IMG/VR virus record: IMGVR_UViG_3300047408_000281
Location: 1 to 44,406 of that record
Source of the DNA: a virus
DNA length: 44,406 bases
Reading direction: 5' to 3' (one strand)
Numbering within the stretch: the first letter of the stretch is position 1; each line of letters opens with the position of its first letter. Shown here in pieces: positions 21,861-38,457 of this stretch. A program made the translations under genes and the position numbers. The notes beneath the pieces were generated by a model, which was not told the origin of the DNA, did not search any database, and was given only the letters and a program-made list of their open reading frames with translations.

Positions 21861-22186
21861 CCGAAATGGTGCTCAGCATCGCGGCATCCCTCGTCGTGCT
21901 CGTGGGTGCCATCTACCGACTGAACGTCATCAAGTACGCGCACCTCAGGCTCTCGCTCGACGGCATGTTCAATACCCTCGAGGCGCTTGGGCTCGCCGCG
22001 ATCGCCGGGGGCTGTGCCGGCGAGATCGGCGAATGGTTCCTGCCCCGTGCGGAGATCCACGCCGAGACGATCGTGCTCACGGGGCTCGCGATCTTCGTGG
22101 TCGGCGTCTCGCGCGGACGCGTCTGCCAGATGGTGGTGCGGATGCAGGGATGGGACGGCACCGATCGACGCTGGAGGCACCCATGA
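21857..22186 (+). CDS. Membrane protein, holin-like
   Basis: The 109-residue protein has three apparent transmembrane segments (MVLSIAASLVVLVGAIY; EALGLAAIAGGCAGEIG; IVLTGLAIFVVGVSRG), with the charged C-terminus MQGWDGTDRRWRHP in the cytoplasm. The size and topology fit class I holins, and the immediate downstream gene, overlapping as ATGA, encodes a putative lysin. The family is not identified, so the role rests on topology and order. Confidence 0.65.
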   Translation: MTEMVLSIAASLVVLVGAIYRLNVIKYAHLRLSLDGMFNTLEALGLAAIAGGCAGEIGEWFLPRAEIHAETIVLTGLAIFVVGVSRGRVCQMVVRMQGWDGTDRRWRHP

Positions 22187-22659
22187 CCATCGAATACGTT
22201 CACAGCGCCATCATTCCAGCCGCGTTCTCGATGCTGCCGGGGCGCATGGATTCGCCGGAGGCCGAGGCGATGATCCTGGCGATCGGCGCGCAAGAGTCGG
22301 GATTCACCGATCGCGAGCAGATGCAAAGCGGTCCCGCCAGAGGCTTCTGGCAATTCGAGCGCGGGGCGGTTAACCGCGTGCTCGCGCATGAAACCCTGGG
22401 GCCGATCATCAAGGCGATCCTGCCGCAGATGGCGTACAAGCCGTGGGACTGCTACGACGCGATCCAGCACAACGACGTGCTCGCTTGCATCTTCGCTCGC
22501 CTGCTGCTCTGGACGCACCCTGCGAAGCTTACGGAGAAGGATGGTCCGGGCGAAGGGTGGGCGCAGTACCTCGAGACGTGGCGCCCCGGGAAGCCGCGCG
22601 TAGTCGACTGGCCCGAGAATTTCGGGCGCGCCTGGCAACTGGTGGAAGGCGCCGCGTGA
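22183..22659 (+). CDS. Putative endolysin (lysozyme/transglycosylase-like)
   Basis: The 158-residue protein has AIGAQESGFTDREQMQSGPARGFWQFE near residue 35, resembling the catalytic Glu region (xESGF) and Gly-rich substrate loop of lytic transglycosylases and phage lysozymes. No signal peptide is visible, so release through a holin would be required. It overlaps the preceding membrane-protein gene (ATGA) and the following gene (GTGA). It may instead be a virion-associated muramidase. Confidence 0.65.
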   Translation: MTIEYVHSAIIPAAFSMLPGRMDSPEAEAMILAIGAQESGFTDREQMQSGPARGFWQFERGAVNRVLAHETLGPIIKAILPQMAYKPWDCYDAIQHNDVLACIFARLLLWTHPAKLTEKDGPGEGWAQYLETWRPGKPRVVDWPENFGRAWQLVEGAA

Positions 22660-24930: not shown

Positions 24931-25092
24931 ATGAACCCTCTTTTCATCGTGGTCATCATCATCCTCGTCGTGCTGGCGATCGCCGGCGCCCCGAACTGGG
25001 GTTACCACAACTACGGATATGTCCCCAGCATCTCGCTCGGTGGAGTCCTGATCATCCTTTTGATCTTGTACCTGCTGGGGGTTTTCCGTTGA
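24931..25092 (+). CDS. DUF3309-like small membrane protein, 53 aa
   Basis: The small protein has two hydrophobic segments (IVVIIILVVLAIAGA and GGVLIILLILYLLGVF) separated by a Trp/Tyr/Asn-rich loop (PNWGYHNYGYVPS). This arrangement matches the DUF3309 family, small membrane proteins common in Proteobacteria. TAGGAG lies 6 bases before the ATG. The function is unknown. Confidence 0.7.
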   Translation: MNPLFIVVIIILVVLAIAGAPNWGYHNYGYVPSISLGGVLIILLILYLLGVFR

Positions 25093-25126: not shown

Positions 25127-25210
25127 ATGAATCGCAACCTCGCACTGCTCGCGGTGATCCTGCTATCCATCGCAGCCGTGGTCGCCGTGCTGCTCCTCAC
25201 CAAGACATAA
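25127..25210 (+). CDS. 27-aa membrane peptide
   Basis: A very short open frame encodes MNRNLALLAVILLSIAAVV, then LLL and a basic end (TKT), a single transmembrane helix. CAGGAAA is about 11 bases upstream. It fits in the 127-base gap between the DUF3309-like and Acb2-like genes. It could be a real micro-protein; the evidence is only composition and spacing. Confidence 0.4.
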   Translation: MNRNLALLAVILLSIAAVVAVLLLTKT

Positions 25211-25219
25211 AGGGAAAAC

Positions 25220-25444
25220 ATGGACAACCAGCATCGCCAGATCAAGGGGTACCGCGAGCTCGACGCGGCCGAGATCACGCTCATGAACGAGATCAAGACC
25301 CTGGGCGTCGACCTGGGCGACCTCGTTGCCAAGCTGCGCGCCGTGGAAGGGCTGGACCAACGCTGGGTGAGCATCGGCGCAACCGACTTGCAGACCGGCC
25401 TCATGGCGCTCACGCGTGCGGTCGCGAAACCGACGTTTTTCTAA
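25220..25444 (+). CDS. acb2: Acb2/Tad1-like anti-CBASS protein (DUF7681)
   Basis: The 74-residue protein matches, from family knowledge, the Acb2/Tad1 hairpin domain: YRELDAAEITLMNEIKTLG in the first helix, LGDLVAKLR, then DQRWVSIGATDLQTGLMALTRAVAKP at the end. Acb2 proteins form hexamers that bind cyclic di- and trinucleotide signals, disarming CBASS and Thoeris-like defence. AAGGGAAA is upstream of the ATG. It lies in a cluster of very small genes between lysis and fibre genes, a typical accessory site. Confidence 0.85.
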   Translation: MDNQHRQIKGYRELDAAEITLMNEIKTLGVDLGDLVAKLRAVEGLDQRWVSIGATDLQTGLMALTRAVAKPTFF

Positions 25445-25467
25445 ACGCACACAGGAAAGGCATCAAG

Positions 25468-25989
25468 ATGAACTACACCGCATCGCAAGGCCAGATCGAC
25501 CAGCTCAACGCGACGCTGAATTCGGCGCTGTCGCAGGTCGCCGCCATTACGGGGCAGCCCGTGCAGCCTCCCGTCGAGCAACCTCCCGCCGGCGGAACGA
25601 TCCCGCCCAGCGGCACGAACCCGGCTCCTCCCGGCGTGCAGGTCGGGACCGAGTGGTTCGATTGGGATCGCCCCAACCAGATGATCACGAGCCAGTACCC
25701 GCAAGGCGTCGTGCTGGCCATCCCGTTCAACGTCCCGGCGGGGTTTACCGGCACGGTGCACCACGAGCTTGTGGCGAACAAGGGCACCGACTTCGACATC
25801 AAGATCTGGATTTCGATGTGGACGCCGGGTGGCGACCCGATCCCCGGGACCGTGTACGAGGGCTCGCTCATCTCTGGAGTGATGCCCGCCGGCGAGGACT
25901 TCCACGCCCAACCGGGCAACTACTACTTCAACGGCCTGGTGAAGAACAAGTCCTGCGAGCTGGGCGGGCAGCAGCGCCACAATCCCTAA
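25468..25989 (+). CDS. Putative fibre-associated beta-rich protein
   Basis: The 173-residue protein has a short N-terminal helix (QIDQLNATLNSALSQVAAI), a Pro-rich linker (QPPVEQPPAGGTIPPSG) and a beta-sandwich-like C-terminal domain (PFNVPAGFTGTVHHELVANKG...YYFNGLV). A coil, linker and beta-head order suits a small fibre or adsorption protein. AGGAAAGG is upstream. The family is not recognised. Confidence 0.6.
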   Translation: MNYTASQGQIDQLNATLNSALSQVAAITGQPVQPPVEQPPAGGTIPPSGTNPAPPGVQVGTEWFDWDRPNQMITSQYPQGVVLAIPFNVPAGFTGTVHHELVANKGTDFDIKIWISMWTPGGDPIPGTVYEGSLISGVMPAGEDFHAQPGNYYFNGLVKNKSCELGGQQRHNP

Positions 25990-25999
25990 AGGATTCGAA

Positions 26000-27574
26000 A
26001 TGCAAGTCGTCGCTGACCGCGTCAAGGAATCGAGCCTCTCCACCGGGACGGGAAACCTCCTGCTGGCTGGGGCCGTGGCTGGCTTCCGTGCGTTTGCCTC
26101 GCAGTGCGCCGTGGGTGATGCGTTCTACTACGCGATCGAGGCACAAACCGGCACGGGCATGCCGTCCGGCGAATGGGAAGTCGGCAGCGGCACCTACTCG
26201 GCGGCGAATACCTTGACGCGCTCACAAGTGCTGTCCTCGAGCAACGCGGGCGCGCTCGTGAATTTTTCGGCGGGCACGAAGCACGTCTGGATCGACGTAC
26301 CCGCTTACCAGCTAGCGGCATTGTCCAACAAGAACAGGCAAACCCTTGCTGTGCTCGGGGATTCGTTCATCCAGCGCAACATGGCGTCGCTCGCTTCCAA
26401 CGTCTACTCGACCCCAACTTGGGGAATCATCCTCCTCACCAACATGCTCCTGGGCAACGCCTTCGACATCGTGAACATCGATGGCGTGAGCGGCACCACG
26501 AGCGCATCGTTCCTGTCGCGCCTCGCCGCCTCCGTGCTCGCGTTCCGCCCGCGCTACGCGTACATCCAAGGCACGGTGAACGACATCCTCTCGGGAACGC
26601 CGCAGACGCTGGCGCAGTCGATCGCCAACTATTCGGCCATGTTCGCGCAGTGCAACGCGGCCGGGATCACGGTCATCACGAACACGGTCACGCCCTTCGC
26701 TGGATTGAACACTGCGGCCAAGAGGACGCAGTGGCTGCGATTCAATGCCTGGCTTATGAACGTTGCGCCAAGCTTGTACGACGTCATTGTCCTGAGGAAC
26801 GATTACCAGTACCTCGATCCGGCTGGGGTAACTTGCCAACCTAATGCGGCCTTCCTCGCGATTGATCCGACTCATCCTGCGGTTAGGGATTCGTTCACGC
26901 TGGCGCAAAGTAACGCGGCGACTCTTCGTGCCCTTGGCATCGGGGCGACTCTTCCGTCTCCGTTCTTGTCCGGCATTGGCGTTACTGGGTCCGAGGATGA
27001 TGCCATCCATCCCAATCCGATCAACTTCGGGGCGGCCGGCGTCAAGCAGGGCGCAGGCACCACCGGTACCGTTGCGACGACGATGTCGGTCGGGACCACC
27101 AGCAGCCTCGGGACAGCTGTGTGCAGCAAGGTGCCGCGCTCTGACGGGCCCGGCGAGTGGCAGCAGGTCGTCTACACGCCGTCAGCGGCTAACCAGATCT
27201 GCACGTACCAGAATTTCGGCGCGGCCATCGGGCTCGGCAACGCGCAGCCCGGCGACGTGGTTTCGTTCTTCCAGGAGTTTGAGATCGATTCGTCCACGCC
27301 TGCCGCGAATTTCCGCTGGGTGGGTGCCCAGATCACCTTTGTGGGCGGCGCGTACAACGCCGCGGCCTTCCCGATCAACTCCGGGTTCGATAATCTCGGC
27401 GGCCTCAGCGGCGTGAACCTGCGAGGCGTCATTCGGACGCCGCCCGTGGCGATCCCGGCCGGGACCACGGGCATGTTCCTGCTAGCCAACCTGCATGGCG
27501 GCGGTGCCGGGCTCCCGATTACCGCGCGCTACGGGCAGGCAGCGTTCCGGAACCTTTCTCGTCAAGGGTCGTAA
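26000..27574 (+). CDS. Tail fibre with SGNH/GDSL hydrolase domain
   Basis: The 524-residue protein starts like many tail fibres (ADRVKESSLSTGTGNLLLAGA...FYYAIEAQTGTGMPSGEWEVG). From about residue 113 it carries an SGNH hydrolase: block I GDSFIQRN (Ser122), block III GTVNDI (Asn194) and block V DPTHP (Asp289, His292). Residues 350-524 form a Thr/Gly-rich beta domain. Such enzymes remove acetyl groups from capsule or O-antigen during adsorption; that activity is inferred from the family. AAAGGA lies before the ATG. Confidence 0.85.
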   Translation: MQVVADRVKESSLSTGTGNLLLAGAVAGFRAFASQCAVGDAFYYAIEAQTGTGMPSGEWEVGSGTYSAANTLTRSQVLSSSNAGALVNFSAGTKHVWIDVPAYQLAALSNKNRQTLAVLGDSFIQRNMASLASNVYSTPTWGIILLTNMLLGNAFDIVNIDGVSGTTSASFLSRLAASVLAFRPRYAYIQGTVNDILSGTPQTLAQSIANYSAMFAQCNAAGITVITNTVTPFAGLNTAAKRTQWLRFNAWLMNVAPSLYDVIVLRNDYQYLDPAGVTCQPNAAFLAIDPTHPAVRDSFTLAQSNAATLRALGIGATLPSPFLSGIGVTGSEDDAIHPNPINFGAAGVKQGAGTTGTVATTMSVGTTSSLGTAVCSKVPRSDGPGEWQQVVYTPSAANQICTYQNFGAAIGLGNAQPGDVVSFFQEFEIDSSTPAANFRWVGAQITFVGGAYNAAAFPINSGFDNLGGLSGVNLRGVIRTPPVAIPAGTTGMFLLANLHGGGAGLPITARYGQAAFRNLSRQGS

Positions 27575-28115: not shown

Positions 28116-28622
28116 CTACTTGCCGCCCAGCAGCTGCACCAGGGCGCGCGCGCCGGCGAGATCCGCGCCGTCCTGGCACTCCTGAGTCTCGGTCAGGGAC
28201 ACGGGCTTCGCGGTCTGCGGGTCGAGGCCGATCCACTCAAGGGTCATCGAGCACTTCGCCGTCGGCTCGGTGGCATTGTTAGCCGCGTTCCGCTGGTCCG
28301 GGTAATCGCAGCGGCCGAGATCCACGCGCCAGACGTAGCCGGCGATGCAGGCGGGCGAAGACGACGAGCTGCTCGAGGTGGCCGGATCGGCCGGCCTCGA
28401 CGGCAGCGGTGCGAAGCACGCGACCCCACCGCCCTCCATGGGCTTCGACGTGGTGCCAGGTGGGCAGCTCGCGGCGACACAGGTGCCCGATAGGACATTC
28501 GGGATGCCGGCCGGGCATTCGACGTCACGGCACACCGGGCCTCGCGACGTGGCAGCGCAGGTGTAGATGGCTTGGGCTTCGAAAGACAGCGATAGGGCAA
28601 ATACGGCGCACAGCATCTTCAT
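28116..28622 (-). CDS. Secreted Cys-rich protein coupled to integrase
   Basis: The 168-residue protein has a signal peptide (MLCAVFALSLSFEAQA, cut about residue 18) and about a dozen Cys, including CRDVECPAG and CVAASCPPGT, then a Ser-rich linker and another Cys-containing part (CDYPDQRN...CSMTLEWIGLD). Its ATG overlaps the integrase stop (ATGA); GGGGAG is upstream. As the last gene of the leftward operon it may be a lysogenic-conversion protein acting in the periplasm or cell surface. No family is recognised. Confidence 0.65.
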   Translation of the reverse strand: MKMLCAVFALSLSFEAQAIYTCAATSRGPVCRDVECPAGIPNVLSGTCVAASCPPGTTSKPMEGGGVACFAPLPSRPADPATSSSSSSSPACIAGYVWRVDLGRCDYPDQRNAANNATEPTAKCSMTLEWIGLDPQTAKPVSLTETQECQDGADLAGARALVQLLGGK

Positions 28623-30205
28623 GGTGTTGTTCTCCCCTTGTGTTGGCATATGGTTCCAGGCGGTCGACGCAAACGGAGCCGCGGCACGACGAGCTCGGCC
28701 CCGTCCGCCCAGAATTTGTCCGGGTTAGCGTCTTGTCCCTGTGGGGACGCCACCTTAACCCGGCTAAGCGTCAGCCGGTACGTGATCCGGCCGCTTCTGG
28801 TGGCCGGATCGAGCTCGATCCGGCCTATCCAGGCGCGCAGGACGTCCTTCAGGGCGTCGCGATCGAGCTCGCCCATGTCCGAGGCCATCCGCTGCAGTAG
28901 CGCGGCTACAGCGGCCTCGTCGACGGCCTCAAGCACCTTCACGCGCTCGCCGGCGTCTTCGGCGCGCATGACCCTCTCGGCGGCGTCCTGCCGCTCGATC
29001 TCGAGCTCGTCCAGCCTGGCCAGCAGCGGCCGGGGCTCGCGGGCGTGCTCGACCAATCCCATCAGCTTCCTGATCCGCTTCTCCACGTCGGCCAAGGCAG
29101 CGCGAGCCGCCTCGAGCTCGCTCCGGTCCTGCAGGTTCTCCTGCAGGGCGCGGATTTCGCGCACAAACGCCTGCACGATCTCCGGCGAGCCCAGATCGAC
29201 CGGGAGCTGCTCCAGCACGGAGCGTTCGAGCAATGCCGCGTCGATCGAGCCGCCACGCGTGGTGTAGCAGTCGCGGTCGCCCCACCACGGCTTGCCGTCC
29301 GGGCGCACGAGCAGGCCCGAGAGCAGGTAGGTGCCGCCGCGGTTGCGCCGGGCCGCGTGGGCGCCCTTTTCAAGCCGGGTGAGAATGGCCTCTGCCTCCG
29401 CGTCGCTCACGAGCGCCTGGTGCGTCCCGCGCTGAATTTGCCATTCCGAACGAGGGCGCCGGCTGCCGCTGGCCTGGCTGTCCTTCGGGCGGCGCGTGTT
29501 CCAGGTGGTGTGGCCAGCGTAGGTTAGCGCGTTCCATTCGACATCGACAAGGCCGGTCCGGGTGATAGGCAGGCGCAATTGCCGCGCGATCGCGGAGCCG
29601 GCCTGGCCCGCAGATCGGGCGCGCAGGTAGGTGGCGATCGCCGGTGCTAGCGCCTCGTCGGGGACCAGGCGCGACTTCTCGACGGCGGCACCATTACGCA
29701 CCGCCGCGGTCGCCACGCGCTCGAAGCGATAGCCGATCGGCGCCCGCCCGCCGGCGCGGAAGCCGCGGCGCACGTTCTCGGCCATGCCGGCCAAGCCCTT
29801 CTCCCGGCTCATGAGGCTGTGCACCTCGTCCATGGCCTGGAAGGTGTTCTGCAGGATCACGGATGTGATCGGGTCGCTCTCCGGGATCCTCACGTAGAGG
29901 ATCGACACGCCGCGCTTCTTCGCCTCGTGCTGCAACGACTGGGCGATGTAGGTGCGCCTTGCGATGCGGCTTGTGTCGTAGGCGAGGATCACGTTCCATG
30001 CGCGGCCGCGGGCGGACAGGTCGCGCAGGAGCCGCTGGTAGCCGGGGCGTTGGTCGTCCTTGCCGGACTCGACGGCGTCGGCGTACTCACCGATGATCGG
30101 GAGGTTCTTCGCCTGGGCGAGCTCGGCCAACGCCCGCCGCTGGGCGTCGAGGGACACGTCTGCGCGGTCCTTGCTCGACCGTAGGTACAGGACTGCTGCT
30201 CGCAT
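28619..30205 (-). CDS. Large serine recombinase (integrase)
   Basis: The 528-residue protein has an N-terminal resolvase domain (YLRSSKD with catalytic Ser11; DQRPGYQRLLRDL; VILAYDTSRIAR), a recombinase domain (about 150-260; GGRAPIGYRF) and a C-terminal coiled coil (about 350-420, LEAARAALADVEKRI). It should catalyse integration and, with a directionality factor, excision. In the zinc-ribbon segment (YLLSGLLVRPDGKPWWGDRDCYTTRGG) the usual CxxC knuckle is missing, with only one Cys. GGAG is 8 bases before the ATG. No att core could be identified. Confidence 0.9.
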   Translation of the reverse strand: MRAAVLYLRSSKDRADVSLDAQRRALAELAQAKNLPIIGEYADAVESGKDDQRPGYQRLLRDLSARGRAWNVILAYDTSRIARRTYIAQSLQHEAKKRGVSILYVRIPESDPITSVILQNTFQAMDEVHSLMSREKGLAGMAENVRRGFRAGGRAPIGYRFERVATAAVRNGAAVEKSRLVPDEALAPAIATYLRARSAGQAGSAIARQLRLPITRTGLVDVEWNALTYAGHTTWNTRRPKDSQASGSRRPRSEWQIQRGTHQALVSDAEAEAILTRLEKGAHAARRNRGGTYLLSGLLVRPDGKPWWGDRDCYTTRGGSIDAALLERSVLEQLPVDLGSPEIVQAFVREIRALQENLQDRSELEAARAALADVEKRIRKLMGLVEHAREPRPLLARLDELEIERQDAAERVMRAEDAGERVKVLEAVDEAAVAALLQRMASDMGELDRDALKDVLRAWIGRIELDPATRSGRITYRLTLSRVKVASPQGQDANPDKFWADGAELVVPRLRLRRPPGTICQHKGRTTP

Positions 30206-31076: not shown

Positions 31077-32141
31077 TCAGCGAAATACCTTGGTGAGCGT
31101 GCGGTTTACAGCGTGCCCGCGGCGGCGCACCAGGCGCGCGAGCAGCTCGCGATCGTGGCGGTTGGCGGTGGCCTGGCGCATCAGGCCGAAGTAGCTATTC
31201 GCCGTCGCGAAGACGTCCGCCGGCGAGGCCTCGGCGGTGCGTCGCAGCGCCTCGCTGAACGTGCGCCGGCGGATGCGCCGGTGCCAAGGCTTGAGGACCT
31301 GGCCCACGAAGTCGATGCCGCGCGCGATCGGTTGCAGCACCGTCTTGCGGGGATTCAATTCGACCGCGAGCTCGCGCGGCAGGAAGGCCTCGATCTCCGC
31401 GAGGGTTGCCCGCAGCCACGCCGGCGACTCGTGCAGGAGCACGAAGTCATCTACATAGCGGACATAGCGACGCACGTGCAGCTGGTGCTTGGCGAACTGG
31501 TCGAGCCTGTCGAGGTAGATGTTGGCGAAGAACTGGCTCGATAGGTTGCCGATCGGAAGCCCCAAGTGCGCGGGTTGGTTCGTGAGGCGTTTGTGAGCGG
31601 GCACCAGGCGCAACTGCGACGCCGGGCAGCGCATCTCGACATCGGTCCGTGGATCGTGGAAGAGTATCTGCAGCGTGAGCTCGCGCCACCACGGCTCGTG
31701 GATCCGTGGCTCGAGGAGGCCGGCGAGGATGCGCTTGTCGATCGCCACGAAGAAGTTGGCGACGTCGCACTTCAGGTACCAGCCCGCGCGCGACCAGTTG
31801 GCGGTGAGGCTGCGCACGTGGTGCTCCAGGCGGTGCGCCGCGTAGAGCGTCCCGCGGCCGCGGATGCATGCACACGTGTCGACGCTGAACGAGCGCTCGA
31901 AGCGCGGCCCGATGCGGTTGTAGAGCATGTGATGCACGATGCGATCGCGGAAGGCGGCCGCCCACACCTCGCGCGGCTTGGGCCGCGTGACCACGAAGCA
32001 GATCGACCGGCCCGGCGTGTAGCTGCCGCTGGCCAGCTCGTCGAAGAGCCCGACCAGGTTGCGCTCGAGGTGCATCTCGAAGGCGAGCGCGCTCTTCGTG
32101 TTGCGCTTGTTGCGGCGGCAGTCGTAGTACGCCGCCACCAA
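31077..32141 (-). CDS. DGR reverse transcriptase (RT), start uncertain
   Basis: Retroelement RT with motifs in order: DRIVHHMLYNRIG (domain 2a type), WYLKCDVANFFVAIDK (domain 3, first catalytic Asp), GLPIGNLSSQFFANIYLDRLD (the DGR-type IGxxxSQ signature, about 31532-31552) and RYVDDFVLLHE (YVDD active site, about 31446-31457), then the domain 5-7 segment ARGIDFVGQVLKP. The conserved part begins at FDELVAAYYD. I give TTG 32141 as the nearest usable start; the frame is open to ATG 32495, running through the template repeat. There is no Shine-Dalgarno match for 32141, so the true start is unresolved. Its role is adenine-mutagenising cDNA synthesis from the TR RNA, with Avd. Confidence 0.9.
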   Translation of the reverse strand: MVAAYYDCRRNKRNTKSALAFEMHLERNLVGLFDELASGSYTPGRSICFVVTRPKPREVWAAAFRDRIVHHMLYNRIGPRFERSFSVDTCACIRGRGTLYAAHRLEHHVRSLTANWSRAGWYLKCDVANFFVAIDKRILAGLLEPRIHEPWWRELTLQILFHDPRTDVEMRCPASQLRLVPAHKRLTNQPAHLGLPIGNLSSQFFANIYLDRLDQFAKHQLHVRRYVRYVDDFVLLHESPAWLRATLAEIEAFLPRELAVELNPRKTVLQPIARGIDFVGQVLKPWHRRIRRRTFSEALRRTAEASPADVFATANSYFGLMRQATANRHDRELLARLVRRRGHAVNRTLTKVFR

Positions 32142-32180
32142 CTCATCGAAGGAAGGTCCAGCATGGTCTACCGCGTCTCG

Positions 32181-32289
32181 ATCTGCGGACGGCCCGGGCC
32201 CGGAGCTCGTTGTCCTTGTGGTTGTTGTTCTGGTTGCCGTTGTTGAAGTTCTGGTACCAGGCGTAGGCCTCGTTGCCGGCGTACTGCGT
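32181..32289 (-). repeat. DGR template repeat (TR)
   Basis: The 109-bp TR lies between RT and Avd. On the coding sense (minus strand) it contains 33 adenines and nine AAC codons, and would read as TQYAGNEAYAWYQNFNNG and on to NELRARAVRR in the VR frame. Its 3' end (sense) is the GC-rich CTCCGGGCCCGGGCCGTCCG, identical in both VRs and the candidate initiation-of-mutagenic-homing region. The TR is expected to be transcribed with the flanking 32142-32458 sequence as the DGR RNA. Confidence 0.95.
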
Positions 32290-32458
32290 CCATTCGTGCT
32301 ATCCACGTCGACCCGCCGAAGGCCTCGGCCGATCAGCGGATCGACTGCGCCGGACCGGGCGCGGCCGGAGCCGCCGATGTCCGTGGCGCGCATGGCGGTG
32401 GCCTCGTGGGCCAGCGGCACGACCAGATTGTTTCCCACGGGCATGATCGCCTTGACGG
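32290..32458 (-). other. Spacer between Avd and TR
   Basis: The 169 bases on the upstream side of the TR hold no clear gene. The RT frame stays open through them (Arg/Thr/Gly-rich reading from ATG 32495), but composition suggests this is the 5' part of the DGR template RNA, not protein. No terminator is seen. Confidence 0.5.
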
Positions 32459-32815
32459 TCATGCGGCAGGGGACTTCGCGGAGTACTTGCGCCACCCGGT
32501 GGCCTGCTTGCCGATCACGGCCGTGAGCTCGATTGCGCGTGCGTGATGCTTCACGGCGATGAGGCTCATGTCCTTCGCGAGCCTGAAAAGCAGCTCAGCG
32601 ACCTGGAGGCGCTCGAGCAGTCGATCGAGGTGCGGCACCTTGTCCGCAGCAGCGTTCGCGCGGTAGATGAGCACCACGAGCTCGAGGCACTCCTCGCGTA
32701 CCTTGGCGCCCATGCTGGCCTTGAAGTCGCGCGGCATGTGTCGCGTGATCTCCGTGGCCAGCACGAGCAGCTGGTACGTGACCTGGTAGATCGGCAGGGT
32801 GGAGTGAAGCGCCAT
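32459..32815 (-). CDS. avd: Avd-like DGR accessory protein
   Basis: The 118-residue basic protein is the right size for Avd, the pentameric four-helix-bundle partner that binds RT and the template RNA. Its sequence is all helix (PIYQVTYQLLVLATEITRHM; MGAKVREECLELVVLIYRAN; HLDRLLERLQVAELLFRLAKDM; HARAIELTAVIGKQATGWRK), with the family-like YDLLxxIxRxxxxFPRxxK pattern seen here as TYQLLVLATEITRHMPRDFK. It lies between VR target gene and TR as in classical DGRs. Confidence 0.9.
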   Translation of the reverse strand: MALHSTLPIYQVTYQLLVLATEITRHMPRDFKASMGAKVREECLELVVLIYRANAAADKVPHLDRLLERLQVAELLFRLAKDMSLIAVKHHARAIELTAVIGKQATGWRKYSAKSPAA

Positions 32816-32843
32816 GCTGGAAAAGGGCTAAATCACTGAATGG

Positions 32844-33239
32844 TCAAATGGGCAATCTGCGGACGGCCCGGGCCCGGAGCACGCTGCCCTTGCGGCCGTA
32901 GTACTGGGTGCCGTTGGTGAAGTACTGGAACCAGGCGTAGGCCGCGTAGCCGGCGACGCTCTCGGCGCTCCAGTACCACTCCTTTTCGAAGAGCTCGGGG
33001 ACGTTGGCGAAGCACAGCGCGAGATCGCGGCGTGTCGGCAGCTCGCCGCCCACGGACTCGGCCCACTGCCGCGCTTCTTCCCACGTCATGCGTTCCTTCG
33101 GCGGCTCCTGCTCGAGCACCTCGAGGGCGTAGTCGTCGCCGTCCTCGGGCCCGCGGCCGATGCCCGCGTAGATGCCGTGCAGACCGAGCGCGCCGATCGC
33201 ATCCCGCTCCTTCGTGAGCGAATCGCCTTGCACTTTCAT
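32844..33239 (-). CDS. DGR variable protein 2 (DUF1566-like)
   Basis: The 131-residue protein starts at ATG 33239 with AAGGAGG upstream (spacing 6); longer in-frame starts are in the neighbouring gene. WEEARQWAESVGGELPTRRDLALCF and the C-terminal WYWSAESVAGYAAYAWFQYF are typical of DUF1566/C-type-lectin-like proteins. The last 34 or so residues lie in VR2, ending RARAVRRLPI. Variable side chains are exposed on the ligand-binding face in this fold. It lacks a visible signal peptide. It is the second of two adjacent DGR targets. Confidence 0.9.
   Translation of the reverse strand: MKVQGDSLTKERDAIGALGLHGIYAGIGRGPEDGDDYALEVLEQEPPKERMTWEEARQWAESVGGELPTRRDLALCFANVPELFEKEWYWSAESVAGYAAYAWFQYFTNGTQYYGRKGSVLRARAVRRLPI
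32855..32956 (-). repeat. DGR variable repeat 2 (VR2)
   Basis: The 102-bp repeat aligns without gaps to TR 32181-32282. I count 15 differences, all at TR adenines (T on the plus strand). The next base mismatch on the upstream side is not adenine-linked, marking the end of the repeat. Mutated codons change Asn to Tyr, Thr, Gly or Ser. Confidence 0.95.
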
Positions 33240-33277
33240 GGACTGCCTCCTTGCGAAATGGGTGAATGGATGAAGGG

Positions 33278-33880
33278 TCAAATCTTCAATCTGCGGACGG
33301 CCCGGGCCCGGAGCTCGCCGTCCTTGCGGGCGTTGCTCTGGCCGCCGCTGAAGAAGCCCTGGCACCAGGCGTAGGCCCCGCCGCCGGCGGACTGCGTGGA
33401 ACTCCAGTACCACTCGGCCTCGAAGGCTTCGGCGCCGCGCGCGCGGAACGCGTCGTGCGTGGTCTGCCCGGGCGAGTCGGGCATGTAGGCGTAGCCCACC
33501 GGCACGCTGCTGGGGTTGTCGCCGCGGTAGCAGTAGTTCTCGGCGGTGGTCGGCTTGAATGCGCGGTAGAGGATCTCCAGCTCGTCGCGCGAGGGCAGGT
33601 ACCAGTCGTCGAAGCCGCCGATGCGCAGGCCTCGCGCCCACTTGGCGAGGTCGCTGCCCGCCGTGTCGAACGCAAGCGTGTTCGCATAGCCGTCGCAGAA
33701 GCTGAGCGCATCGGCCACGCGGCCGCCGCTTTCGTTCAGCTGCTCCTCCGCCTCGCCCTCACTCTTCGGCGCCACGATGAGCACGTGCTCGATGCCGCCT
33801 ACGAGGATGCGACCGGCATAGAAGCCGCCGGCGAACGCGGTGCCGGGAATGGTGGGGATTTCGGTGGTCGTGGTGTCCAT
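33278..33880 (-). CDS. DGR variable protein 1 (DUF1566-like)
   Basis: The 200-residue protein has AAGGAG 7 bases before ATG 33880; an in-frame ATG at 33904 forms an ATGA overlap with the upstream gene and is an alternative. After a Thr-rich start it has GTAFAGGFYAGRILVGG, then a DUF1566 segment (FCDGYANTLAFDTAGSD...FDDWYLPSRDELEILYRAF) and ends in AYAWCQGFFSGGQSNARKDG, ELRARAVRRLKI within VR1. The C-terminal C-type-lectin fold is the known display scaffold of DGR targets. No signal peptide is seen. Confidence 0.92.
   Translation of the reverse strand: MDTTTTEIPTIPGTAFAGGFYAGRILVGGIEHVLIVAPKSEGEAEEQLNESGGRVADALSFCDGYANTLAFDTAGSDLAKWARGLRIGGFDDWYLPSRDELEILYRAFKPTTAENYCYRGDNPSSVPVGYAYMPDSPGQTTHDAFRARGAEAFEAEWYWSSTQSAGGGAYAWCQGFFSGGQSNARKDGELRARAVRRLKI
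33289..33397 (-). repeat. DGR variable repeat 1 (VR1)
   Basis: The 109-bp repeat aligns gap-free to TR 32181-32289. I count 18 differences, all 18 at TR adenines. The changes differ from those in VR2, so the two repeats were mutagenised separately. Examples: TR Asn codons become Gly, Phe, Ser and Ala; one TR Tyr becomes Cys. Confidence 0.95.
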
Positions 33881-33900
33881 TGATGCTCCTTGATAGGTGG

Positions 33901-34098
33901 TCATGCCAGGCCTTTCAACGTCGCGAGCACCGCGCGCATGCTGGCGATCTCGCGATCGGCGAGCTTTTGCGTCATGCGCTTCTCCGCTACCCACTTGGGA
34001 TAGCATTTCTCGCGGAACACGAGCTCGCGCTCAACGCACGCAATCTGTGCCTCGATGGAAACGGGAGCATCGGCCTCGGTGAAGAGCCCGTTCGTCAA
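33901..34098 (-). CDS. Hypothetical protein, 65 aa
   Basis: The small helical protein (EAQIACVERELVFREKCYPKWVAEKRMTQKLADREIASMRAVLATL) resembles short phage proteins with a charged antiparallel helix pair. To my recollection, similar KWVAxxxMTQxxADREIAxM sequences are widespread in phages. It overlaps the upstream gene as ATGA and is followed by the VR1 gene. The function is unknown. Confidence 0.75.
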   Translation of the reverse strand: MTNGLFTEADAPVSIEAQIACVERELVFREKCYPKWVAEKRMTQKLADREIASMRAVLATLKGLA

Positions 34099-35644: not shown

Positions 35645-37504
35645 TCAGGACGCGGTCGGATCCTTGCTCGGCTTCACGCCGCGGTTTTTCGCGCGCTGGG
35701 TCTTCACCTGGCGCGCGACGGCCTTGCGATCCACGCCGCGGGCCTTCGCGAGCTCGATCCACGGCTCCTCGTCGCGCTCCATGTTCGTGAAGACAGTGTC
35801 GAGCAGCATCGGCACGAGCTCGGAGGTCGCGGCGTTCCTCACGACCTCGCCGAGGTCGACGCCCGCGCCGATCTGCTCGTCGGAGAGACCCCACAGCTTG
35901 AGGACGCGCTCGCTCGGCTCGCCGCCCAGGTAATCGTTGGCCTGGTAAAGCATGGCGCGCACTTCCTCGGGGCCGAGCCCGTCCATCGCGATGGCGGCGC
36001 GCCAGCAGCAGTACATGCCGAAGCGGATGTCGCGCTCGATCTCCTGCTTCTCGCGCAGCTTCTTCGACTCGGCGCCGTCGTACTCGTCATCATGGCGACT
36101 GTCGGCCGCGATTTCAGACGTCTCGACCTTGATGCCCTTCTTCTCGAGCGCGGCCTGTGCCTCGCCGATCGCCAGCGCCTTCACGAACTCGCCGGGCCTG
36201 TCGGGCTTCTCCACCAGTGTGTGATCGGCCGCGGCCTTGCCGAGCACCGCGGACCAGGTGCGCTTTTTCTCGTCGGCCGGGCAACAGTCGTCCAGGCGGA
36301 CGTAGCCCGAGGGCGCCTGCCATTCGTACGGGTAGATCTTCTTCGCGTCCTTCCCGACGATCACCGGATGGCCGCTATCGCGCGCCTTCGTGCGCTGGAT
36401 GTCGACGAACGCCTTGCACTTGGCCTCGAAGCAGTCCGGGTCCGTGCACACGTCCGCATTCGCGATGTCGACAAAGAGCTCGGGCTCGTTGCCGGTGCGC
36501 TTCGGGCAGTCGGTGCACGCGCCGGCCCCGGGCACCAGGCCCGCGTCAGCCGGACGGAACGGCGCCTCCTTCAGCCGCAGCATGTAGCGGCGCTCGATGT
36601 GTTCCTTGGCTTCCCGGTACGACATCGGCTCGTCGAAGCCGTCGTTCGAGGCAATCTCCCCGAGGCACTTCTCCTGCAGCGCCTGCACCGGGATGCGCGC
36701 CACGAGGAGTGCGATCGAGGCGGAGATCGCGCCCTTGTACAGCGCCTCGCGCCCCGCCGCGCACAGCGCCAGGAGCTTCAAGCGCGCGTAGACGTAGGCC
36801 TTGCTCTTGCCGACCTTGGCCGCGACATCGTCGACGGCGTACGTCGCCCCGTCGGCCTGCTTGCACTGCATGAGCGCCTCGTAGCCCTCCGCCTCCTCGA
36901 GCGGGTGCACATCGACGCGCTGGTTGTTCTCGATCACCTGCAGCTCGAGCGCCTCGGCGTCGGTCAAGTCGCGCACGATGGCCGGGATCTCGGCCAGGCC
37001 GGCTGCACGAGCGGCCCGCGAGCGGCGCTCGCCGGCGACGATCTCGTACATCCCCTCGCCGAGCGGCCGCGCGATGATGGGCACGATCACGCCCTGGACG
37101 CGCACGTTGTCCGTGAGCTCGGCCATCTTCTCGGGGTCGAAGTACTTGCGGTGATTGAGCGGCGAGGGCTCGAGGTTCGCGAGCGCGATCCACTGGTGAT
37201 GGCCGGGGCCCGCGGCGGCTGGCGAGGCGGTGGTCGCGACGGTGTCGGCGGCGGGTGTCGTGGTGGCTGCATCCATGGTTTGCGTGTCCTCGCAGGTGCG
37301 CCGATCGAGCTCGGCCTGGATCATCTCGATGAACATGGGCCGGCAGTCCTTCGCCTGCATCTCGGCAGCGAACGCGGCGACGAGGACCTCCGTGGGATAC
37401 CCGGGCAGGGCCTTCGCGGTCTTCGGCCCGGGTTTCAGCGCACGCACCACGTCCCAGGGCGTCGCGATGAGCGGCACGATGACTGGTTCGACGGTGTCGG
37501 TCAC
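35645..37504 (-). CDS. ParB-like protein (ParB/Srx nuclease-like and KorB-type HTH)
   Basis: The 619-residue protein starts at GTG 37504, overlapping the upstream stop (GTGA), with GGAGG 8 bases before. A 76-residue N-terminal extension precedes MDAATTT (37276, alternative start). The ParB/Sulfiredoxin-like domain (about 105-200) has GVIVPIIARPLGEGMYEIVAGERRSRAA and the family box GERR. An HTH (GKSKAYVYARLKLL) follows, then Cys pairs (CTDCPKRTG; CTDPDCFEAK) that could bind zinc. The C-terminal 200 residues are helical. Phage ParB-like proteins may bind and organise phage DNA or act as CTPase switches; there is no ParA here, so simple partition is unlikely. Confidence 0.85.
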   Translation of the reverse strand: MTDTVEPVIVPLIATPWDVVRALKPGPKTAKALPGYPTEVLVAAFAAEMQAKDCRPMFIEMIQAELDRRTCEDTQTMDAATTTPAADTVATTASPAAAGPGHHQWIALANLEPSPLNHRKYFDPEKMAELTDNVRVQGVIVPIIARPLGEGMYEIVAGERRSRAARAAGLAEIPAIVRDLTDAEALELQVIENNQRVDVHPLEEAEGYEALMQCKQADGATYAVDDVAAKVGKSKAYVYARLKLLALCAAGREALYKGAISASIALLVARIPVQALQEKCLGEIASNDGFDEPMSYREAKEHIERRYMLRLKEAPFRPADAGLVPGAGACTDCPKRTGNEPELFVDIANADVCTDPDCFEAKCKAFVDIQRTKARDSGHPVIVGKDAKKIYPYEWQAPSGYVRLDDCCPADEKKRTWSAVLGKAAADHTLVEKPDRPGEFVKALAIGEAQAALEKKGIKVETSEIAADSRHDDEYDGAESKKLREKQEIERDIRFGMYCCWRAAIAMDGLGPEEVRAMLYQANDYLGGEPSERVLKLWGLSDEQIGAGVDLGEVVRNAATSELVPMLLDTVFTNMERDEEPWIELAKARGVDRKAVARQVKTQRAKNRGVKPSKDPTAS

Positions 37505-38457
37505 GGCGCGGTCCTCCACAGCAGCTGCGTCTTCTCGAGGAAGCCCACGCCGTACTCGCAATCCGCCGGCGAGAGCTTGATGGTCTGGTCGCCGTCCTTG
37601 ATCGCGACCGTGCCCGTGTCGGTGATGGCCCACTCGATCCTCCCGGCCTTCGACGGCACCGCGGGCAGGTGCCGCGGCTGTGCAGGCTCCTCCGGCTCGA
37701 CCGATTTGCGCGCGTGCCGACTCGTGCCAGCCGCGCGCGCTTCGGTCTTCTCGCCCTTGCGGGCCTTCGCGGCGTGGTTCGAGGCGGCTGCCGTAACACC
37801 GAGCGCCGCGTAGCGACGGCCCGAAGTGTTGCCGCACGTCTGGATCGCGCCCAGTGTCGCGAGCTCGCGCAACCTGGTCCCGATCACCGCCTTGTGCTCA
37901 AGCAGGATGCCGACCACCTCGGCGACCGACATCCACGTGTGGCGGTTCTCCAGCAGCTCGACGTACTTGTTGAAAGGCCGCGCCGCCGCGGTCTTCTGCT
38001 GTCCGTGGCTTCCCTTGGGCATAGCCTCCTCCTTGGTGGTGACGAGGTCGCCCTTCGCGTCGGGTGCCACGAATGGGCGGATCTCGAGTTGCGGCGCACC
38101 ATTGGCACCGAGCTGGGCCTCTTCCGCGTCGTCGTCCTCCAGCACGTGCATGCGGCGCGCGGGCGGCCGCGGATGGATGTCACGCGCCTGCACGTTCTCG
38201 ACGGCAGAAGCGATCACGCCCACCCTGGCGGCATTGCCGCGGTGCGCTTCGTAGATGAACTCCTCGCCGCGCTTGCTGCGGACGAGCCGGCCGTCGGCCA
38301 CCAGGCGGCCCAGCGTCTTCGCGCACTGCGTCTCGTCGTCGAAATCGGCATCGACGCGCGCGTAGATCTCGCCGCGAGGCAGCGGCGAACCTACGGCCGC
38401 GAGGATCGCGACCAGCCGGGCCTCGCGATCCAACATCTTCAGTGGGCGCGCGCTCAT
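37501..38457 (-). CDS. Putative winged-helix DNA-binding protein
   Basis: The 318-residue protein (ATG 38457) has two helical DNA-binding-like parts: residues 1-70 (REARLVAILAAVGSPLPRGEIYARVDADF...TLGRLVADGRLVRSKRGE) look like a winged helix, and residues 155-220 (YVELLENRHTWMSVAEVVGILLEHK...RLRELATLGAIQ) like a second. A low-complexity linker with KARKGEKTEARAAG follows. The C-terminal domain (EWAITDTGTVAIKDGDQTIKLSPAD) is a small beta unit. It is a probable early regulator. An internal ATG (MPKGSHG) has AAGGAGG but too close. Confidence 0.65.
   Translation of the reverse strand: MSARPLKMLDREARLVAILAAVGSPLPRGEIYARVDADFDDETQCAKTLGRLVADGRLVRSKRGEEFIYEAHRGNAARVGVIASAVENVQARDIHPRPPARRMHVLEDDDAEEAQLGANGAPQLEIRPFVAPDAKGDLVTTKEEAMPKGSHGQQKTAAARPFNKYVELLENRHTWMSVAEVVGILLEHKAVIGTRLRELATLGAIQTCGNTSGRRYAALGVTAAASNHAAKARKGEKTEARAAGTSRHARKSVEPEEPAQPRHLPAVPSKAGRIEWAITDTGTVAIKDGDQTIKLSPADCEYGVGFLEKTQLLWRTAP

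Follow-up and report, generated by a model that had tools for sequence, protein, structure and literature searches.

A short-hairpin Acb2 gene, most likely encoding a sponge for CBASS cyclic oligonucleotides, in an uncultivated phage

What does the small gene at positions 25220-25444 (+ strand) of this viral contig encode, and what could its product do for the phage? In a first-pass annotation of the window (by which we mean the whole stretch of 44,406 nucleotides analysed here) a 74-residue ORF had been placed at these positions. This ORF is real: the gene is intact, begins with an ATG, ends with a TAA and gives a product of 74 aa. A Shine-Dalgarno-like AAGGGA can be read from the sequence at 25210-25215 (+), 4 nt 5' of the ATG; a 27-codon ORF (25127-25210) stops just 5' of the gene, and the next ORF on the 3' side begins at 25468. 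A scan for promoters and terminators gave nothing usable. We compared the gene with 61 distinct 74-codon relatives and counted 900, 697 and 2528 differences at codon positions 1, 2 and 3, respectively. Wherever dS was finite, dN/dS lay between 0.06 and 0.19 against the 25 nearest relatives among the matches listed, and its median was 0.28 across 129 pairs of relatives with lower divergence (dS 0.1-1.0). The gene is under purifying selection, dN/dS being well below 1. The distribution of changes over the codon positions favours the reading frame on the + strand, and for this reason the antisense ORF at 25163-25450 was ruled out as the real gene.

The product has a single Pfam match, PF24729 (Acb2_Tad1_hairpin), which covers profile positions 1-58 of 58 and scores 60.4 bits, well over the cut-off of 27; the family-model search that had been proposed as a check on the annotation thus comes out in its favour. 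We take this Pfam family to be the one formerly called DUF7681. Together with the codon-position and dN/dS pattern, the same score rules out a chance ORF. Among the PHROGs the product matches phrog_717 (E 3.2e-20), a group which contains homologues of T4 Vs.4 (PMC10097602), and PADLOC and NCBIfam returned no family for it. A sequence search of the PDB gave two Acb2 entries, both named p26, with 8h2j as the best match (E 5.9e-16) and 8ixz as the second (2.9e-15), followed by noise. Two strings had been put forward earlier as sequence hallmarks, and both are present: ITLMNEIKTLG forms residues 19-29 and DQRWVSIGATDLQTGLMALTRAV forms residues 46-68. The latter had been described as the end of the protein, which is not exact, since AKPTFF comes after it.

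The predicted fold agrees with this assignment. An AlphaFold2 model built from 76 aligned sequences (pLDDT 89.1) has helices at residues 4-7, 16-41 and 47-69, and a review gives Acb2 the same layout, a short N-terminal helix and two long antiparallel helices (PMC12043709). In a Foldseek search of the PDB the highest ranks went to Acb2 chains (best E 3.0e-5), followed by Vs.4. With VIA-align, 8h2j (Acb2-cGAMP) reached Z 9.1, with 73 of the 74 residues aligned at an rmsd of 2.2 A, 7uq2 (T4 Vs.4-cGAMP) reached Z 8.7, with 72 residues at 2.4 A, and unrelated helical folds reached Z 6.8 and lower, it being understood that Z values below about 13 may reflect an arrangement common in helical bundles. 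A small helical hairpin gets middling Z values against many folds; hence the structural match supports the assignment and the sequence match decides it. We concluded that the product is almost certainly a member of the Acb2 family, a membership which, as we read the evidence, is settled by the sequence match more than by the structure. The Acb2-like reading of the first-pass annotation is borne out by the agreement of the PF24729, PHROG 717 and 8h2j matches with the fold, and the anti-CBASS activity that went with it would follow from the family.

Two solved proteins serve for comparison. The Acb2 of the Pseudomonas phage PaP2 (PDB 8h2j/8h2x, "p26") has the same family and fold and is 47% identical to our product over 73 aligned residues; both have Y11, L14, K26, an R-W pair after the loop, an R (66 in our product, 85 in PaP2), an A (69 and 88, respectively) and a C-terminal F, but the PaP2 protein is longer (93 aa) and carries about 19 extra residues at the tip of the hairpin. 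R67 of PaP2 Acb2 presumably takes part in cA3 binding. T4 Vs.4/Acb2 (7uq2) also has the same fold, and its Y8, K23, R79 and T68 correspond to Y11, K26, R66 and T55 of our product, although identity in the structural alignment is 28%. In T4 Vs.4, Y8 and F82 stack on cGAMP while Y8, H11, K23 and R79 make polar contacts (PMC10097602). In the alignment, the base-stacking tyrosine is retained as Y11 (codon 25250-25252, +; Y in 93 of 95 sequences), and two of the other cGAMP contacts are retained as K26 (25295-25297, +) and R66 (25415-25417, +), each present in 95/95 sequences. The structural alignment suggested earlier as a further check is thus passed with these three residues in place. The stacking F82 and the contact H11, which are features of the T4 subtype, are replaced by A69 and L14, as they are in PaP2 Acb2 (A88 and L14), a protein solved with cGAMP. 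Changes at the T4 interface residues L29, A66, A73 and A77 abolish binding (PMC10097602); these positions align with L32, G53, G60 and L64 of our product. Replacement of T68 of T4 Acb2 by Met reportedly weakens binding (PMC12657230).

Conservation was counted over the query and 94 distinct homologs from 111 loci, after removal of L009 (which stops after 20 codons in frame), of the window's own locus L030 and of identical proteins; for loci whose match does not begin at a start codon, an upstream ATG was chosen by script. L14 and A69 are found in all 95 sequences, W49 in 94, G60 in 93, F74 in 92, T55 in 91 and R48 in 90. As the homologs were retrieved with query-derived patterns and the best 80 viral loci were retained, this sample favours close, short forms. 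Close relatives have the same length and the same residues: the 74-aa product of Acinetobacter phage Ac42 is 67.6% identical, and many 74-aa relatives in IMG/VR contigs reach identities of up to 82%. In the records that we opened, relatives of the Ac42 type are annotated only as hypothetical. The relatives in OR577172.1 (L117) and MT104468.1 are annotated as "NAD/FAD-utilizing enzyme", which is probably a mis-annotation.

These residues bear on the alternative that survives best, in which the Acb2 fold is kept and the ligand is shifted: the protein would chiefly bind a different cyclic oligonucleotide or some housekeeping signal, or would have lost the trinucleotide site. A hairpin tip some 19 residues shorter than that of the solved PaP2 protein and the replacement of T4 contacts F82 and H11 could both be understood in this way, and Acb2 homologs do differ in ligand range according to the review (PMC12043709). 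We nevertheless consider a shifted ligand unlikely, given that Y11, K26, R66 and the R48-W49 pair are kept in nearly all aligned sequences, in the short forms and in the long ones.

The shortened tip is itself variable. According to phmmer and MAFFT alignments, and to the limits of the two long helices in the model, it comprises residues 40-46 (25337-25357, +), and it is at this tip that the extra residues of the long forms sit in the alignment. Among the near relatives, a sample biased to close ones, 79 of 94 have a length of 72-76 aa, against 81-99 aa in the other 15; the 74-aa short-hairpin form is the usual one among them. On a tree built from 68 end columns, with 80 rows for the short forms (72-76 aa) and 16 rows for the long ones (81-99 aa), we counted 5 changes, compared to 15.0 when shuffled, most forks of this tree being poorly resolved. 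It is conceivable, if rather doubtful, that the 74-aa short-hairpin Acb2s make up a distinct and widespread subtype, a near-minimal sponge in which the dinucleotide pocket is kept while the shortened hairpin alters the central channel and, through it, the specificity for trinucleotides or larger rings. Some Acb2 relatives have a second type of N-terminus, in which MET(F/M)xQPK(I/V)TGYRQL replaces M(D/E)NQH(R/K)xIKGYRxL (loci L007, L008, L010, L016, L017, L023, L101, L108, L111 and L112).

How is the gene distributed, and what surrounds it? By tblastn, relatives were found in 226 of 50,697 phage records. A pattern scan of genomes gave 29 loci from 413 matched stretches, and pattern scans of viral contigs gave stretches encoding a relative in 235 cases out of 276 and in 389 out of 435. 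In the window, a holin-family gene (PF23987, 23161-23571) lies upstream, and shortly upstream, among several small ORFs, there is a DUF3309 gene for a membrane-type protein of 53 aa (24931-25092, +). On the 3' side there are an ORF of 173 aa and a gene for a GDSL-lipase (26000-27574). The context described earlier, between lysis and fibre genes, holds in part: the holin-family gene is there, but the putative lysin (22183-22659) matches only a PHROG of unknown function and the GDSL-lipase has no demonstrated fibre domain. A tblastn search of 16 flanking ORFs against the 111 acb2 loci found no relative at E 1e-4, and megablast of window positions 20000-44406 against phages found no match. Around the other loci, the most frequent neighbour PHROG occurs in at most 3 of 88 downstream and at most 3 of 91 upstream ORFs, a neighbour being the longest + strand ORF beginning or ending within 400 nt, so that a wrong frame may sometimes have been taken. 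The acb2-like gene is common to phages with unrelated surroundings. An anti-defence cassette which is transferable and carried in late operons would be in keeping with this, late expression being our supposition.

It would also be possible to think of a virion or head-assembly accessory protein, since relatives are often found in the company of head and tail genes and the neighbours include portal, sheath and head families: in Ab9 and LS06-2018-MD04 the relative is flanked by head-tail adaptor or portal genes on one side and by head genes on the other, and in PB119 it precedes the terminase genes. The lack of a recurrent neighbour family suits a late-operon cassette better than a virion part, and the nucleotide-pocket residues are retained, which makes a structural role very improbable. 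Least credible of all is a Tad1-type sponge which would bind gcADPR, block Thoeris and be recognised here by the common hairpin: PF24729 does span the hairpin of Acb2 and Tad1 alike, but Tad1 has a four-strand N-terminal part ahead of it (PMC12043709), for which a product of 74 aa with helices only in the predicted structure has no room, and it is Acb2 and Vs.4 that match best. Tad1 as the full identity was hence ruled out, our product corresponding to the hairpin part alone and, without the N-terminal beta domain, to Acb2; no Tad1 chain is among the Foldseek or VIA-align matches listed, though the hairpins may be akin.

The remainder of the window tells us something about the phage itself. 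A large serine recombinase/integrase gene (28619-30205, -; Resolvase and Recombinase domains, phrog_95) indicates that the phage is probably temperate. We searched the lysogen genomes of 24 of the 29 genome loci (that is, all except L018, L021, L023, L027 and L029) for a SMODS nucleotidyltransferase and found one weak match and none over the cut-off, so the sampled lysogens themselves provide no link to CBASS. Positions 31077-34006 (-) probably constitute a diversity-generating retroelement. It has a reverse transcriptase gene (31077-32495, -; phrog_1423, E 7.3e-118) and a template-like repeat (32178-32289, -), while two neighbouring ORFs of the Lcl_C type (32844-33641, -, below the cut-off, and 33278-34006, -, over it) carry the two variable-repeat copies at their ends (32852-32963 and 33286-33397, -). 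Relative to the first copy of the repeat, 18 of 23 mismatches in one of the other copies and 18 of 19 in the other fall at its A positions. The template-like repeat is inside the called reverse transcriptase frame, ahead of the match to the reverse transcriptase model; therefore the true start of that gene probably comes after the repeat. An ORF of 730 aa (35645-37837, -) has ParB N-terminal and HTH domains, and is long for a ParB-type protein.

Which function can then be expected of the short-hairpin Acb2 encoded at 25220-25444? Very probably it is a hexameric sponge for CBASS cyclic oligonucleotides which blocks the activation of the effector; we infer the hexamer, the ligands and the inhibition of CBASS from characterised relatives, the mechanism being modelled on the T4 and PaP2 proteins (PMC10097602, PMC12043709, PMC10419184). 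The protein would be made during infection or after induction of the prophage and would most likely assemble as the Acb2 homohexamer. Three cyclic dinucleotides (3',3'-cGAMP and related ones) would be held in pockets between two protomers, and possibly two cyclic trinucleotides would be bound at the two ends of the central channel. The CBASS effector would be left inactive, and the cell would not die ahead of phage release. Like T4 Acb2, which triggers Panoptes (PMC12657218, PMC12657230), the protein might also trip defences of this type, which sense the loss of decoy nucleotides.

Finally we must note that the novelty is limited: the sponge family and its biology are established, and the gene is a further member, not a new system. 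With this gene, an uncultivated and probably temperate phage would be equipped with a counter-defence against CBASS. Short Acb2 is common in environmental viral contigs and absent from the PDB Acb2 sequences found here; such a short natural variant lends itself well to finding out which stretch of the hairpin hexamer formation and trinucleotide capture depend on.
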